From an uncultured SAR86 cluster bacterium (GTDB lineage: Bacteria; Pseudomonadota; Gammaproteobacteria; Magnimaribacterales; D2472): DNA of 38,173 bases. A model generated the notes under the pieces. That model did not search any database. It saw only the letters and a list, made by a program, of their open reading frames with translations, and was not told the origin of the DNA. A program made the translations under genes and the position numbers. Where the stretch lies: contig CACJBC010000011.1 of the NCBI GenBank assembly GCA_902591565.1, positions 1-38,173 on the forward strand. Direction: 5' to 3'. Below are positions 16,797 through 21,702 of the stretch, piece after piece; positions within the stretch are counted from its first letter, which is position 1, and each line of letters begins with the position of its first letter.

Positions 16797-19784
16797 ATGC
16801 AGTTAAAACATATAAAACTATCAGGTTTTAAAAGTTTCGTAGATCCAACGAAGATATCTTTTCCTTCAAATTTAGTTGGCGTAGTTGGCCCTAATGGTTG
16901 CGGTAAATCAAATGTGATTGATGCCGTGAGATGGGTTTTGGGAGAGCTCTCTGCAAAGAATCTTCGTGGAGAGTCTATGGTAGACGTCATCTTCAATGGC
17001 TCAGAAAATAGAAAACCTTCAGGACAATGCAGTATTGAATTACTTTTTGATAATTCAAGTGGACAGATTGGCGGTGAATACGCATCCTTTAATGAAATTT
17101 CTATCAAAAGAGTTATGACAAGAGATGCACAGTCTACTTATTTCATTAATAGTACAAAGTGCAGGAGAAAAGATGTTCAAGATATATTTTTGGGAACAGG
17201 TTTAGGACCAAGCTCTTATGCAATTATTGAACAGGGAATGGTTAGCAGGCTTGTAAGCGCTAAGCCAGAAGAACTTAGAACACACATTGAAGAGGCTGCA
17301 GGTGTCTCTAAATATAGAGAAAGAAGAAGAGAAACTGAAAGTCGAATTAAGAAGACAAAAGAAAATTTATCAAGAGTTAAGGATATTAAAGATGAAATAG
17401 AAAGGCTAATTAAAAGGCTCGAAAATCAAGCTAAAGCTGCAGAGAAATATAATTCGTTAAAAGAAGAAGAGAATCAGAAACAAACTGATATAGCAATTCT
17501 GTATTCACTTGAAGCTAAAAATAATAAAGATCAACTTCAAAAGAACATAGAAGCCTTAAATAGAGATCTAAAAATAAAACAAGCCGAATCAGACTCAAAA
17601 CAAGCTCAAATCGATGATTATAGAACCCAGAATGAGTCTGTAATTAATGCTTATGAGGATGCTCAGAAAAATTTTTATACAATAGGTGCTGAAATAGCCA
17701 AGCATGAATCAGATCTTCATAATATCAATAAATCTGAAGCCGCTAATTTAGAAGCCCTTGAGAGAGCTCAAAAAAGTTACAAAGATGCTCTTCAAAAAGA
17801 GTCTGCATTTAAGGACTTAAGTCCAAAAGAAAAAGAATTAAAGCTAAATATTGCTATTGTTAAAGCTTTTGATGCTCTTGAGAAAAAAAATACTATCGGT
17901 GTATCAATTAAACCGCTCGAAGACCAAATAAACATTAAACAAAATGAATTAGATTCGAAGCAGGATATTTTTGACGGTATCAAAGCTAATAAAGACAAAA
18001 TCGCAAATGAGATAAAAGACATTCAAAAAAATCAATTTTCTGTTGATGCCGAAATTGCAAGAATCGAAGGCTCAATAAAAAATCTTAATAATTTAGCAGA
18101 AAATGCAAAATCAGATTTTGATGAGGCTTCACGTAATTATGCAAATGCTGTTGAAAAAGACTCAAATAATGAACATCTAAGCCCTAAAGAAAAAGCAATA
18201 CACTTACTAGATTCAATCACAAACTTACTTAAATCATTTGGATCAAGCGCAGATAAAGTGAATTCAAAATTATCTGAACTGAAAGAACTCCTAATGAGCA
18301 TATTAAAAATTGCTTCTGATCAATCAAAAACTTTTACTGCTGAATATTTAAATCAAAAAAATAGAGCAGAAGAGGCTATTAACAAAGCCAAGGAAGATAA
18401 AAAAATTGCTGAAACTAAGCTCGAAGACCTTAACAGTCAAAGAATCTCAATTGGTAATCAACTGGAATCACAGATTAGTATTCAGACTAATATAGATAAC
18501 CAATTGCAAGAAATGGATAGCAATAAATCTATTGTATCAAATGAACTTAGAAACCTTGAGAAAGAAATCAATGATTTAAGGCTTGAGCTACGAACTCACG
18601 AAATTAATTTAGAAAATGCTTCAATGGTTTTAGAGAAAGCAGAGGTAAGTATTTCAGACCTTGATTCAGCACAATACAAGGGGATGGATTTAAAAGGGCT
18701 TGAGGTCTCTTTAGATGAAATACAAAAAAACATTGCTCAATTAGGTTCAGTCAATTTAGCTGCTCCTGAGGAGTACTTGAGCAGAGAAAACGAATTAAAA
18801 AAATTAATTGAAGAAGCTGAAATAAGTAAGTCTGAAATTCAAGTAATTATGGATGGCTTGTTAGAAAAGAGCTCTCAAGCAGAATCTGAATTAACAGCCA
18901 TAAGGCAAAAACAATCTCAGTTTAATGAAAGCTTAAGAGACCTTGAAAATCAAAAAAATGTAGCTGAATTAGATCTTAAATCAATTACAGAGAAAGTTAC
19001 TAATCTGAGGTTGGATTTAAAAACCCATGAAATTAATTTAGATAACGCTAACACCAAAATTAAAGAGGCTGGTTTAAATATTGAAAATATAGATTATTCA
19101 GAATATGAAACTATGGAACTTAATGTTCTTCAGGATTCACTTGCTGACATACAGGCAAAAATCATACGTTTAGGAGCTATCAACCTGGCAGCTCCAGAAG
19201 AAATAGCTGCAGAATCAAAAAGAAAAGAAGAGCTTGATGTTCAATACAACGATCTTACTGAAGCTCTTGAAAAACTTACAGGTGCCATAAAAACAATTGA
19301 TCTTGAAACTAAAACAAGATTTCAGGATAGCTTTGATTCAATAAACAAAAGAATGAAAGAGGTATTTTCGAAATTATTTGGTGGCGGCTTTGCGGAGCTT
19401 GCTCTTACTGAAGATGATGCACTAAATGCCGGAGTGGTAATTATGGCTAGACCTCCAGGTAAGAAAAATTCATCAATCTCTCAACTCTCTGGTGGAGAGA
19501 AAGCTTTAACTGCTTTGGCTCTTGTGTTTGCAATTTTTGAGCTGAATCCAGCTCCGTTTTGTATTTTAGATGAAGTAGATGCACCATTAGATGATTTAAA
19601 TACAATGCGCTTTATAAATATGGTTGAGGAGATGTCAAAGACAGTTCAATTCATATTTATAACTCATAACAAAGTTTCTATGGAAAAAAGTGATCATTTA
19701 ATGGGAGTTACAATGCAAGAGGCTGGCGTTTCTAGAATGGTTTCTGTTGATGTTAATCAAGCTCTAAAATTTGCTGAAGTATAA
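16797..19784 (+). CDS. smc: Chromosome partition protein Smc, hinge-less variant
   Basis: ATPase that compacts and segregates the chromosome. The N-terminal head has Walker A GPNGCGKSN (31-39) and the C-terminal head has the signature LSGGEKAL (897-904) and Walker B FCILDEVDAPLDD (921-933), all clearly Smc. The protein is only 995 residues against about 1150-1190 for bacterial Smc. Between the heads (about 170-835) I see only coiled coil: no glycine-rich globular hinge and no CxxC zinc hook (Cys occurs only at 35, 78, 122 and 922). Residues 594-670 and 737-813 are a duplicated coil segment (34 of 77 identical). LSPKEK occurs twice, at 341-346 and 461-466. It follows ccmI by 33 bases and is coupled to zipA. 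Not MukB, which is about 1480 residues. Confidence 0.93.
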   Translation: MQLKHIKLSGFKSFVDPTKISFPSNLVGVVGPNGCGKSNVIDAVRWVLGELSAKNLRGESMVDVIFNGSENRKPSGQCSIELLFDNSSGQIGGEYASFNEISIKRVMTRDAQSTYFINSTKCRRKDVQDIFLGTGLGPSSYAIIEQGMVSRLVSAKPEELRTHIEEAAGVSKYRERRRETESRIKKTKENLSRVKDIKDEIERLIKRLENQAKAAEKYNSLKEEENQKQTDIAILYSLEAKNNKDQLQKNIEALNRDLKIKQAESDSKQAQIDDYRTQNESVINAYEDAQKNFYTIGAEIAKHESDLHNINKSEAANLEALERAQKSYKDALQKESAFKDLSPKEKELKLNIAIVKAFDALEKKNTIGVSIKPLEDQINIKQNELDSKQDIFDGIKANKDKIANEIKDIQKNQFSVDAEIARIEGSIKNLNNLAENAKSDFDEASRNYANAVEKDSNNEHLSPKEKAIHLLDSITNLLKSFGSSADKVNSKLSELKELLMSILKIASDQSKTFTAEYLNQKNRAEEAINKAKEDKKIAETKLEDLNSQRISIGNQLESQISIQTNIDNQLQEMDSNKSIVSNELRNLEKEINDLRLELRTHEINLENASMVLEKAEVSISDLDSAQYKGMDLKGLEVSLDEIQKNIAQLGSVNLAAPEEYLSRENELKKLIEEAEISKSEIQVIMDGLLEKSSQAESELTAIRQKQSQFNESLRDLENQKNVAELDLKSITEKVTNLRLDLKTHEINLDNANTKIKEAGLNIENIDYSEYETMELNVLQDSLADIQAKIIRLGAINLAAPEEIAAESKRKEELDVQYNDLTEALEKLTGAIKTIDLETKTRFQDSFDSINKRMKEVFSKLFGGGFAELALTEDDALNAGVVIMARPPGKKNSSISQLSGGEKALTALALVFAIFELNPAPFCILDEVDAPLDDLNTMRFINMVEEMSKTVQFIFITHNKVSMEKSDHLMGVTMQEAGVSRMVSVDVNQALKFAEV

Positions 19785-20419
19785 TGGATTCCAATATAGA
19801 TATATATTTAATTGGTTTTTCTGTTCTAGTATTCCTAATAATTACATTCCTTTTTATAAGAAAAATTTCTAACAAAGGACAACTCAAAGTAAAAATTGAG
19901 CCTGTTACAGATACTTTTGAAATAAAAGAGTTTGATGAAATTGATATAAAATCTCAAAAAGCTTTTGATTTTGAAGATAAAGATCATATTGACTATCAAG
20001 AACAAAAGCTTGTTGTCTTAAATTTAATATCCGTTGATAAGTCCATGTTCGAAATTGACCAAGTATATGGTTTTATGAATAATCTCGGAGCAACTTTATC
20101 TCATGGATTTTTTGTTATAAAAGATAGCAAAAATAAAGAGTCTTTCAGAATAGCCAATGCTTTAAACCCTGGAACATTTGAAGCGGAGACTAGCACTTTT
20201 GCAATTCTTATTGCAGCTGACCTGAATAATGTCATGGACCCAATTACAACAGTAAAAGATATGGTAAATTTTGCTTATGAATTTACTGAAAAATTCTATG
20301 CCAATATATGTGATCAAGAGAGAATGCCAATAACAAAACAAATGATTTCGCATATTGAGTCTCAAGCACAAGAGATAGCAAGACTAAAACAACTAGCAGT
20401 TGCTGAAAAATCAGATTAA
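19784..20419 (+). CDS. zipA: Cell division protein ZipA
   Basis: Anchors FtsZ to the inner membrane in gammaproteobacteria. The 211 residues contain an N-terminal helix (about 7-24), a short acidic linker much shorter than the Pro/Gln-rich linker of E. coli ZipA (328 residues), and a C-terminal FtsZ-binding domain (about 72-205) with recognisable blocks: FRIANALNPGTFEAE, TFAILIAADLNNVMDP and DQERMPITKQMISHIESQ. The smc-zipA-ligase order is the gammaproteobacterial norm. The start overlaps the smc stop (TAATG) and the end overlaps the ligase start in the same way. Confidence 0.88.
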   Translation: MDSNIDIYLIGFSVLVFLIITFLFIRKISNKGQLKVKIEPVTDTFEIKEFDEIDIKSQKAFDFEDKDHIDYQEQKLVVLNLISVDKSMFEIDQVYGFMNNLGATLSHGFFVIKDSKNKESFRIANALNPGTFEAETSTFAILIAADLNNVMDPITTVKDMVNFAYEFTEKFYANICDQERMPITKQMISHIESQAQEIARLKQLAVAEKSD

Positions 20420-21702
20420 TGAAACCTTGGAAAATAATTCAAAAACTAGAAAGTGATAATAGTAGATTATTTAAAGAGAGTGTTATTGAAGAAAATATTA
20501 ATGATTTAGATTTCCAGGAAGGCCTATCAATGTGCTTAGATGCATTGGTAACATTTGGTGTTAAACAAGTTCCTAAATCTGATAAAAATGGAAAAGGATT
20601 GGATTGGATTACTTTTAAGAATTCAACTTTACTTTTAATAGAAAGAGAAAAGACTGGTCATGCTGCTAGGGATGAAATTTTAGAGCTAATGGATAAAGCC
20701 ACCTCAGAAGAATGGAATGATTGGTATAGAAGAATCTTAATAAAGGATTTGAGGTGCGGCGTAAGTGAGAAGACAGTGAACAATGTCGCAAAAAAAATGA
20801 ATATTCAATTTAGGGTGCCTGTTTTTGCTTGCATGCTATCTCATGACGGAATGAAACATCCAAAAAAGATTAAAGGTAGCTGTTTAATTGAATATAAATA
20901 TGATGGGGTGAGGGTAGTAGCAATAACAAAGAAAAATAATACAACTCTCTACAGCAGAAATGGAAAAATATTTAGTAATTTCCCTCATATTGAAAAAGCT
21001 TTGAGTAAACCTGAATTTAATAATATGGTTTTTGATGGTGAAGTCATGAGCGATGACTTTCAATCATTAATGAAACAGGTTCATAGGAAAACTAATGCAA
21101 AGACAGAAGATGCATATTTAGCTTTGTTTGATATCTTACCTCTTAAAGAATTTAACGATGGTAAAAGCAAGCTTACCACCCTTGAAAGAAAGCACCATCT
21201 AGAGAAATTTTCTAAAAAATTTCCTTCATGCATCAAGATTGTTGATTATACAGTTGTAGATTTTGATAAAGAGCAAGGTGAAGAAACTTATTCTAAAATG
21301 AATAAAGAGGCTTTAGAGCGAGGTTATGAAGGATTGATGATTAAACCTGAGAATGATTTATATGAGTGCAAAAGAAGTCATGCTTGGCTAAAAATGAAAC
21401 CTTTTATTGAAGTTACATTAAAAGTAACTGAGGTTCATGAAGGCACTGGAAGACATGTTGGCAAACTAGGAGCATTTACAGTTGAGGGTACTGATGATGG
21501 AAAATTTTTTTCATTAAATGTGGGCAGTGGTTTGACAGATGAAAATAGAGCAAAATTTTGGCAATATAAAGATTCATTGATCGGACAATTAATAGAAATT
21601 AGAGCAGATGCAGTAACACAAAGTATGGAAGGTGAAAATTATAGTTTAAGGTTTCCTCGTTTTAAAACATTTAGAGGTTTTGAACCAGGAGAAAAGCTTT
21701 GA
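20419..21702 (+). CDS. ATP-dependent DNA ligase (T4-like) at the ligA locus
   Basis: Seals nicks in duplex DNA using ATP. The 427 residues include a DNA-binding domain (about 1-140, with KDLRCGVSEKTVN as in T4-type ligases), then nucleotidyltransferase motif I EYKYDGVR with the adenylated lysine K160 (T4 ligase uses K159), motif III FDGE (205-208), motif IV EGLMIK (304-309), motif V WLKMK (323-327) and a C-terminal OB fold. There is no zinc finger, HhH or BRCT, so it is not LigA. It occupies the place normally held by NAD-dependent ligA after zipA. Origin from a phage is likely but inferred; codon use looks like the neighbours. Confidence 0.93.
   Translation: MKPWKIIQKLESDNSRLFKESVIEENINDLDFQEGLSMCLDALVTFGVKQVPKSDKNGKGLDWITFKNSTLLLIEREKTGHAARDEILELMDKATSEEWNDWYRRILIKDLRCGVSEKTVNNVAKKMNIQFRVPVFACMLSHDGMKHPKKIKGSCLIEYKYDGVRVVAITKKNNTTLYSRNGKIFSNFPHIEKALSKPEFNNMVFDGEVMSDDFQSLMKQVHRKTNAKTEDAYLALFDILPLKEFNDGKSKLTTLERKHHLEKFSKKFPSCIKIVDYTVVDFDKEQGEETYSKMNKEALERGYEGLMIKPENDLYECKRSHAWLKMKPFIEVTLKVTEVHEGTGRHVGKLGAFTVEGTDDGKFFSLNVGSGLTDENRAKFWQYKDSLIGQLIEIRADAVTQSMEGENYSLRFPRFKTFRGFEPGEKL

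Follow-up and report, generated by a model that had tools for sequence, protein, structure and literature searches.

A hingeless Smc in SAR86 bacteria with a predicted helical hairpin at its arm tip

The window considered here, that is, the whole stretch of 38,173 nucleotides that was analysed, comes from an uncultured SAR86 cluster bacterium (Gammaproteobacteria, order Magnimaribacterales, family D2472; assembly GCA_902591565.1, contig CACJBC010000011.1, positions 1 to 38,173 of the forward strand). It carries an smc gene followed by zipA, and the 995-residue product of the former is a bacterial Smc, a hingeless variant rather than a canonical member of the family. Its ABC ATPase heads are complete, with the Walker A, LSGGE signature and Walker B motifs all present, and they match solved Smc heads with E-values to 1e-105. 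The protein scores 863 bits with the NCBIfam Smc equivalog TIGR02168 (cut-off 567), as against 61 bits with the Rad50 models, and is matched by the Pfam domain SMC_N (E 9.9e-55). Hence, the heads are those of a canonical Smc, as an earlier note made from the sequence of the window had proposed. The gene, its parts and its neighbor are arranged as follows (residue numbers are those of the window protein):

16797..19784, forward strand: smc, 995 residues, long form of the hingeless Smc (open reading frame translation, Pfam, TIGR02168)
16797..17291, forward strand: N-terminal ATPase head half, residues 1-165, with Walker A GPNGCGKS (sequence, TIGR02168, solved-head matches)
17304..17837, forward strand: head-proximal N-terminal coiled-coil arm, residues 170-347, in the register of the short Smc (segment profiles, AlphaFold, column score)
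17838..18767, forward strand: distal hairpin block read as inserted, residues ~348-657, with second N-arm, tip, second C-arm and second joint, in +120 register (segment profiles, column score, tree)
18177..18350, forward strand: tip in place of the hinge, residues 461-518, with helix 463-480, turn 481-485 and a helix from 486 (AlphaFold, conservation)
18639..18767, forward strand: copy of the Smc joint, residues 615-657, LGSVNLAAPEE (segment profiles, AlphaFold, column score, LGxxN motif)
18768..19196, forward strand: head-proximal C-terminal arm and original joint, residues 658-800 (segment profiles, column score)
19197..19781, forward strand: C-terminal ATPase head half, residues 801-995, with LSGGE signature and Walker B LDEVDAPLDD (sequence, profiles)
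19784..20419, forward strand: zipA, the next gene after smc (PF04354, E 5.7e-13)

The same note had claimed that the protein lacks both a recognisable hinge between its coils (about residues 335-520) and a CxxC zinc hook, and both claims are borne out. The hinge domain SMC_hinge (PF06470) is not found at E-values up to 10 in the whole protein, in residues 170-835 or in residues 335-520. As some full-length Smc proteins are missed by PF06470, its absence was not trusted alone, and a hinge profile was made for this analysis from 36 full-length gammaproteobacterial Smc proteins. This profile recovers all 36 training proteins with at least 69.9 bits and gives 107, 102, 34.8, 33.9 and 15.8 bits with five further proteins, none used in training and all taken as hinge-bearing (L147, L100, L103, L104 and L107, respectively). 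The window protein scores -1.7 bits, against 2.2 bits for the best of 60 shuffled copies, and all 56 complete SAR86 Smc proteins lie at the level of shuffled sequences, the best in the order reaching 1.8 bits and the best shuffle 2.2. The AlphaFold model described below likewise has no hinge. A CxxC motif is absent from the arms of all 62 proteins of fewer than 1000 residues, a set in which L025 is partial and L100 bears a hinge. Locus L147 (1449-4415 in a Legionellales metagenome-assembled genome) codes for a 988-residue Smc, nearly 200 residues below the usual length, with the hinge kept; considered as a further hingeless Smc, it was rejected by its 107 bits with the hinge profile. Hence, short length alone does not amount to hinge loss.

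The missing hinge is a property of the whole order and not a deletion in a single assembly, a possibility that the earlier note had left for comparison with related genomes. We sampled 61 genomes from 18 genera, namely that of the window, 17 more of its genus, 19 others of its family and 24 from other families of the order. Smc matches are found in 59 of these, and PF06470 in none. Across the class as a whole, PF06470 is found in 213 of 275 genomes (four of them from this order) and TIGR02168 in 269, with 242 above the cut-off. The 56 complete Smc proteins of the order fall into tight length classes: 20 long forms, every one of 995-996 residues, and 36 short forms with only 727-827 residues (13 of 727-733, 8 of 732-736, 7 of 809-810 and 8 of 821-827); partial proteins from G020, G022 and G056 were left out of the length and tree counts. 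One of the short forms, of 728 residues, is encoded on the closed chromosome of the SAR86 isolate D2474-A1-1 (CP097973.1, corresponding to contig C1 of G023; 1,325,892 bases, with the position of smc in agreement). When genomes were scanned with the window protein, 78 loci were retained; of the first 25, 18 are titled SAR86 cluster, CP097973.1 among them, and seven carry broader names (one Legionellales, the above L147), the remaining loci coming from other Gammaproteobacteria. In a head tree of gammaproteobacterial Smc proteins the SAR86 versions form one clade (support 100/99). This tree left out 11 long forms, as well as L025, L066, L074, L079, L083, L100, L103 and L104 on account of missing motifs or truncation.

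The AlphaFold model of the window protein, computed from an alignment of 14 of the 20 long forms, has a mean predicted local distance difference test score (pLDDT) of 65; the heads are poorly predicted, the arms mostly lie at 70-93, and the ten-residue blocks of the tip at 62-78. The ascending side consists of helices 170-334 and 343-456 followed by a tip helix (463-480), a turn (481-485) and a long helix (486-614). The returning side continues with broken helices (615-656), a helix (657-757), a second set of broken helices (758-799) and a helix (800-861), and no strand is predicted between residues 85 and 864. The earlier note had placed a possible tip around residue 490, close to the predicted turn. 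The model of the 728-residue relative from the closed chromosome (24 of 36 short forms aligned, pLDDT 77) has the same arrangement in shorter form, with helix 170-335, tip helix 343-357, a turn and helix 362-490, tip blocks at 52-71, and no strand between residues 145 and 597. A Foldseek search with this short model found coil-carrying Smc heads, with 5xei as the best and SMC and Rad50 entries among the matches listed, and was uninformative on the tip itself.

Both conservation and purifying selection are seen at the tip. In the 20 long forms, whose N-terminal head half has a mean pairwise identity of 94%, that of residues 461-518 is 0.67, compared with 0.46 and 0.48 for the distal arms on either side, and this segment coincides exactly with the best-conserved 58-residue stretch within residues 361-614. 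For 13 short relatives, the most conserved 50-residue stretch of residues 225-490 likewise starts at the tip (residue 338), with 0.51 against a median of 0.42. The ratio of nonsynonymous to synonymous substitution rates (dN/dS) stays under 1 wherever it could be computed, for all regions and pairs, being 0.03-0.42 for the block and the tip in the eight pairs tried, with several dS values saturated. Tip hydrophobicity was considered as proof of dimerisation; it gave a mixed result and was not used.

The long form can be written in terms of the short one. Segment profiles of the short Smc map onto it in three registers, and the column score places the best breaks after residue 346 and after residues 657-659, giving the composition short[1-346] + short[227-537] + short[395-732]. 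The middle block (residues 348-657, about 310 residues including the tip) follows the short form in one gapless +120 register. It adds 120 residues to the N arm and 143 to the C arm, in register, with the C-side joint copied, so that the LGxxN joint motif occurs twice, at residue 649 (copy) and residue 792 (original). From the alignments, the long form reads as a short Smc whose old tip of about 48 residues gave way to a single contiguous insertion of an arm-tip-arm hairpin. Two separate tandem duplications (120 residues in the N arm and 143 in the C arm) were set aside in view of the single register across the tip and of the block sequences of 10 long forms constituting a clade of their own (100/99). 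The 143-residue duplication proposed in the earlier note therefore survives as the C-arm part of the repeat and not as the whole of the extra sequence, which takes in both arms and the tip; likewise, its figure of about 850 residues for the protein freed of the duplication has to be replaced by about 730. A blastp comparison of the window protein with itself returned the trivial match only.

In trees of the arms, from which 10 long forms were left out, the head-adjacent arms of the long forms group with eight short relatives (99/99). A long (L020, G024) and a short (L026, G031) Smc from one genus have sister heads and sister proximal arms, and the inserted hairpin must hence have been gained or lost since these two genomes split. 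We also considered a recent in-gene duplication in the lineage of the window. A clade uniting the block with the proximal arms is rejected (approximately unbiased test, p-AU 0.00024), a result open to bias from rapidly evolving distal arms, and the block is accordingly either older or from another SAR86 lineage. It could be ancestral, with loss in several of the short lineages, or could have been spread by recombination.

In the ordinary Smc joint, as described in PMC5526789, the N-terminal helix is continuous and the C-terminal side is split into short helices. The copied joint of the long form has the same predicted appearance in the AlphaFold model, which allows the speculation that it might act as an elbow.

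Measured from the end of the N-terminal head to the C-terminal joint, the distance is 618 residues in all 20 long forms and 350-355, 356-360, 431-433 or 444-449 in the other groups of the order, with a variation of at most 5 within each. By the same ruler, canonical Smc proteins of 1155-1173 residues have 777-796 (median 792; 31 of 34 measured), of which a hinge of about 153 leaves about 639 for the arms. Relative to these, each arm would fall short by about 10 residues in the long form, 97-103 in the forms of 809-827 residues and 140-144 in those of 727-736 residues, which suggests that the total arm length of the long form is back close to that of an ordinary Smc. Burmann et al. give length modes of 238, 341 and 515 residues for prokaryotic Smc arms, with minor ones at 163 and 423, and functional B. 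subtilis constructs in the ranges 253-267, 321-344, 330-373 and 407-435 (PMC5344682). Taking the 344 of that work as the canonical arm, the estimated arms of the long form (about 334) and of the 809-827-residue forms (about 241-247) lie near the reported modes.

The genes for the partners of Smc are widely retained, and the alternative condensin proposed as a check in the earlier note is missing. ScpA is found in 53 of the 61 genomes and in all 18 genera, ScpB in 53 (52 above the curated cut-off) and again in all 18, and ParB in 54 genomes and 17 genera. MukB is an alternative condensin of some Gammaproteobacteria; its head domain PF04310 occurs in none of the 61 genomes nor among the Pfam matches of the window protein, which itself is an Smc, while no search was made for MksB, which is also an alternative condensin. 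In the genome of the window, which is 83% complete, neither ScpA nor ScpB was seen; ScpA is present in 13 of the 18 genomes of its genus.

Taken together, we favor, at a probability of roughly 60%, the explanation that the chromosomal Smc of SAR86 functions as a ParB-loaded Smc-ScpAB condensin, whose hinge disappeared in an ancestor of the order, with a short helical hairpin taking its place at the end of the arms. Two tips would pair, perhaps as a four-helix bundle, and so join two Smc molecules, and ScpA would bridge the heads and close the ring. DNA would be handled by the heads, the joint and the kleisin, with neither a hinge lumen nor a hinge gate, and loading would fall to ParB. In the lineage of the window, the short tip may then have been swapped for a complete second arm-tip hairpin, lengthening both arms. 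In B. subtilis, a Rad50 zinc hook in place of the hinge permits normal growth on rich medium (PMC5344682), and the fold of the dimeriser is hence not critical there.

Several observations weigh against such a condensin. ScpA and ScpB were each missed in eight of the 61 genomes, all but one of which are at most 84% complete; G045, a single contig of 1.0 Mb (93%), shows neither, and its family relatives G042 and G054 have only partial ScpA matches. The structural models are of monomers, with modest pLDDT at the tip in both the long and the short form. In some families another stretch exceeds the tip in hydrophobicity (the long forms usually peak elsewhere, and the signal is weak in f4), and the tip sequence varies among families, so that a single conserved interface is not established. 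Lastly, the arms of the 727-736-residue forms, estimated at about 200 residues, lie off the modes reported in PMC5344682.

Two of the alternatives would do away with hinge loss altogether. An artefact of assembly, a frameshift or a pseudogene might come to mind given that most of the assemblies are drafts and many are metagenomic. However, the 56 complete proteins come from separate genomes, one of them a closed chromosome, and their constant lengths and the purifying selection on them leave this a negligible chance. It is also highly improbable that a strongly diverged hinge persists unrecognised. That such oversights happen is clear from G066, whose 1161-residue Smc is missed by PF06470 and belongs to the 36-protein set scoring at least 69.9 bits with the hinge profile. 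Against this, even the top score of the order with that profile falls below the best shuffle, the short forms have just 350-449 residues from the N-terminal head to the C-terminal joint, and in the AlphaFold models the two tip helices are joined by a turn of just a few residues.

Other alternatives accept the loss and differ on what the protein does. Rad50/SbcC proteins have SMC-like heads and coiled-coil arms, and no hinge. Hinge loss as in the Rad50/SbcC and RecN families could mean that the SAR86 protein moved from chromosome organisation to a comparable repair role, and another function was considered for their hinge-less SMC by the authors of PMC12153180. We regard such a shift as improbable: the protein scores far lower with the Rad50 models than as an Smc, Rad50/SbcC has a zinc hook and a nuclease partner, there is no zinc hook here, and ScpAB and ParB are kept with no MukB to take over (MksB, as noted, lay outside the search). 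A stronger contender, if still rather unlikely, is that the tips do not dimerise at all, and that ATP-engaged heads and the ScpAB bridge alone hold two Smc molecules together as an open V rather than a ring. The differences among the tips of the families and their not uniformly hydrophobic character fit this picture, as do the kept kleisin genes and the intact heads. However, nothing else in the distal arms is as well conserved as the tip, and arm lengths are held with a strictness not obviously needed for a free end.

Hingeless Smc proteins also occur outside the order, in two gammaproteobacterial families with small genomes: f39 (G095 and G325, 934-938 residues) and f135 (G191 and G296, 927-944 residues), the loci concerned being L092, L094, L098 and L099. 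They have no PF06470 match, do not rank among the top 30 scores with the hinge profile, a list that ends at -0.9 bits, and all four genomes code for ScpA. Their arms, estimated at about 300 residues, are likewise off the modes given in PMC5344682. In the head tree these proteins do not group with SAR86. A single clade of SAR86, f39 and f135 is nevertheless not rejected (p-AU 0.396), so that the hinge may have been lost once or more than once in Gammaproteobacteria. Profile comparison of the f39 and f135 distal arms with the short family f1 gave no convincing match, and the f2-f135 and f3-f135 comparisons ran along whole arms, such that homology of the tips is neither supported nor excluded by them. 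In a 1.0 Mb genome (G222), the Smc match at L090 is interrupted by 30 stops and has the appearance of a decaying smc gene.

The hinge is regarded as a standard component of SMC motors, acting as dimeriser, as DNA-binding surface and, in some models, as a gate; a 2025 paper is titled 'The SMC Hinge is a Selective Gate for Obstacle Bypass' (PMC12647877). A clade with heads, kleisin genes and ParB and no hinge is a natural test case for the part that the hinge plays in the individual steps of loading and loop extrusion. The order also has arms of several natural lengths (350 to 618 residues from N-terminal head to C-terminal joint), with long and short versions in one genus, which would allow the arm-length rule derived from engineered B. 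subtilis Smc to be tested in nature, and the nested hairpin suggests that one genetic event can resize a long antiparallel coiled coil with its register kept.

The SAR86 Smc shares with the canonical Smc of Smc-ScpAB (TIGR02168) the heads, neck, joint and coiled-coil arms, along with the ScpA, ScpB and ParB genes in the genomes. It differs in having a helical-hairpin tip and no hinge, in its length of 727-827 or 995-996 as against 1155-1173 residues, and, in the long form, by the second joint and nested hairpin. The engineered B. subtilis Smc with a Rad50 zinc hook (PMC5344682) resembles it in working without the hinge fold and in its tightly constrained arm length; that construct is artificial and dimerises via the zinc hook, whereas the SAR86 versions have no CxxC. 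A comparable case is an ocean-abundant clade of 'hinge-less' SMC proteins assigned to Actinomycetes (Sussfeld et al. 2025, PMC12153180). These are likewise marine, are SMC and not Rad50 by structure comparison, and have no hinge, no zinc hook and no normal SMC alongside. They differ in coming from another phylum and in that no arm-length series or nested hairpin is described for them in the section consulted, a distinction drawn from the description and not from sequence. A word search of the main text of that paper returned no occurrence of SAR86, ScpA, kleisin or arm length. We found no report of hinge loss in SAR86 in the open-access PMC literature, a coverage that leaves out subscription papers and preprints. 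Hence, hinge-less SMC as such is already in print (PMC12153180), and what appears new is its presence in a second phylum, with retained kleisin genes, graded arm lengths and a nested hairpin. A wider proposition, which we hold to be evenly balanced, is that the SAR86 order, and probably the two further small-genome families, run a complete ParB-Smc-ScpAB condensin without a hinge and with a new helical-hairpin tip as dimeriser. Along with the actinobacterial case, the hinge would then have been repeatedly dispensable in small-genome marine bacteria, and the arms would have been lengthened in one step by a stacked second hairpin, the second joint of which may be an elbow.

The surroundings of smc offer a separate observation. 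After zipA, the window codes at 20419-21702 for an ATP-dependent DNA ligase (phrog_114, E 4.4e-89; solved relatives 6rar, 6ras and 6rau, E about 1e-130). The NAD-dependent ligase LigA (PF01653) is found in 39 of the 61 genomes of the order; all 24 genomes from the other three families have it, but just three of 18 in the genus of the window do (one of them by a partial match). Of five smc-adjoining regions in the family, four have the ATP-dependent ligase and one, from G003 of the same genus, has ligA, which suggests that an essential ligase gene was replaced in place.

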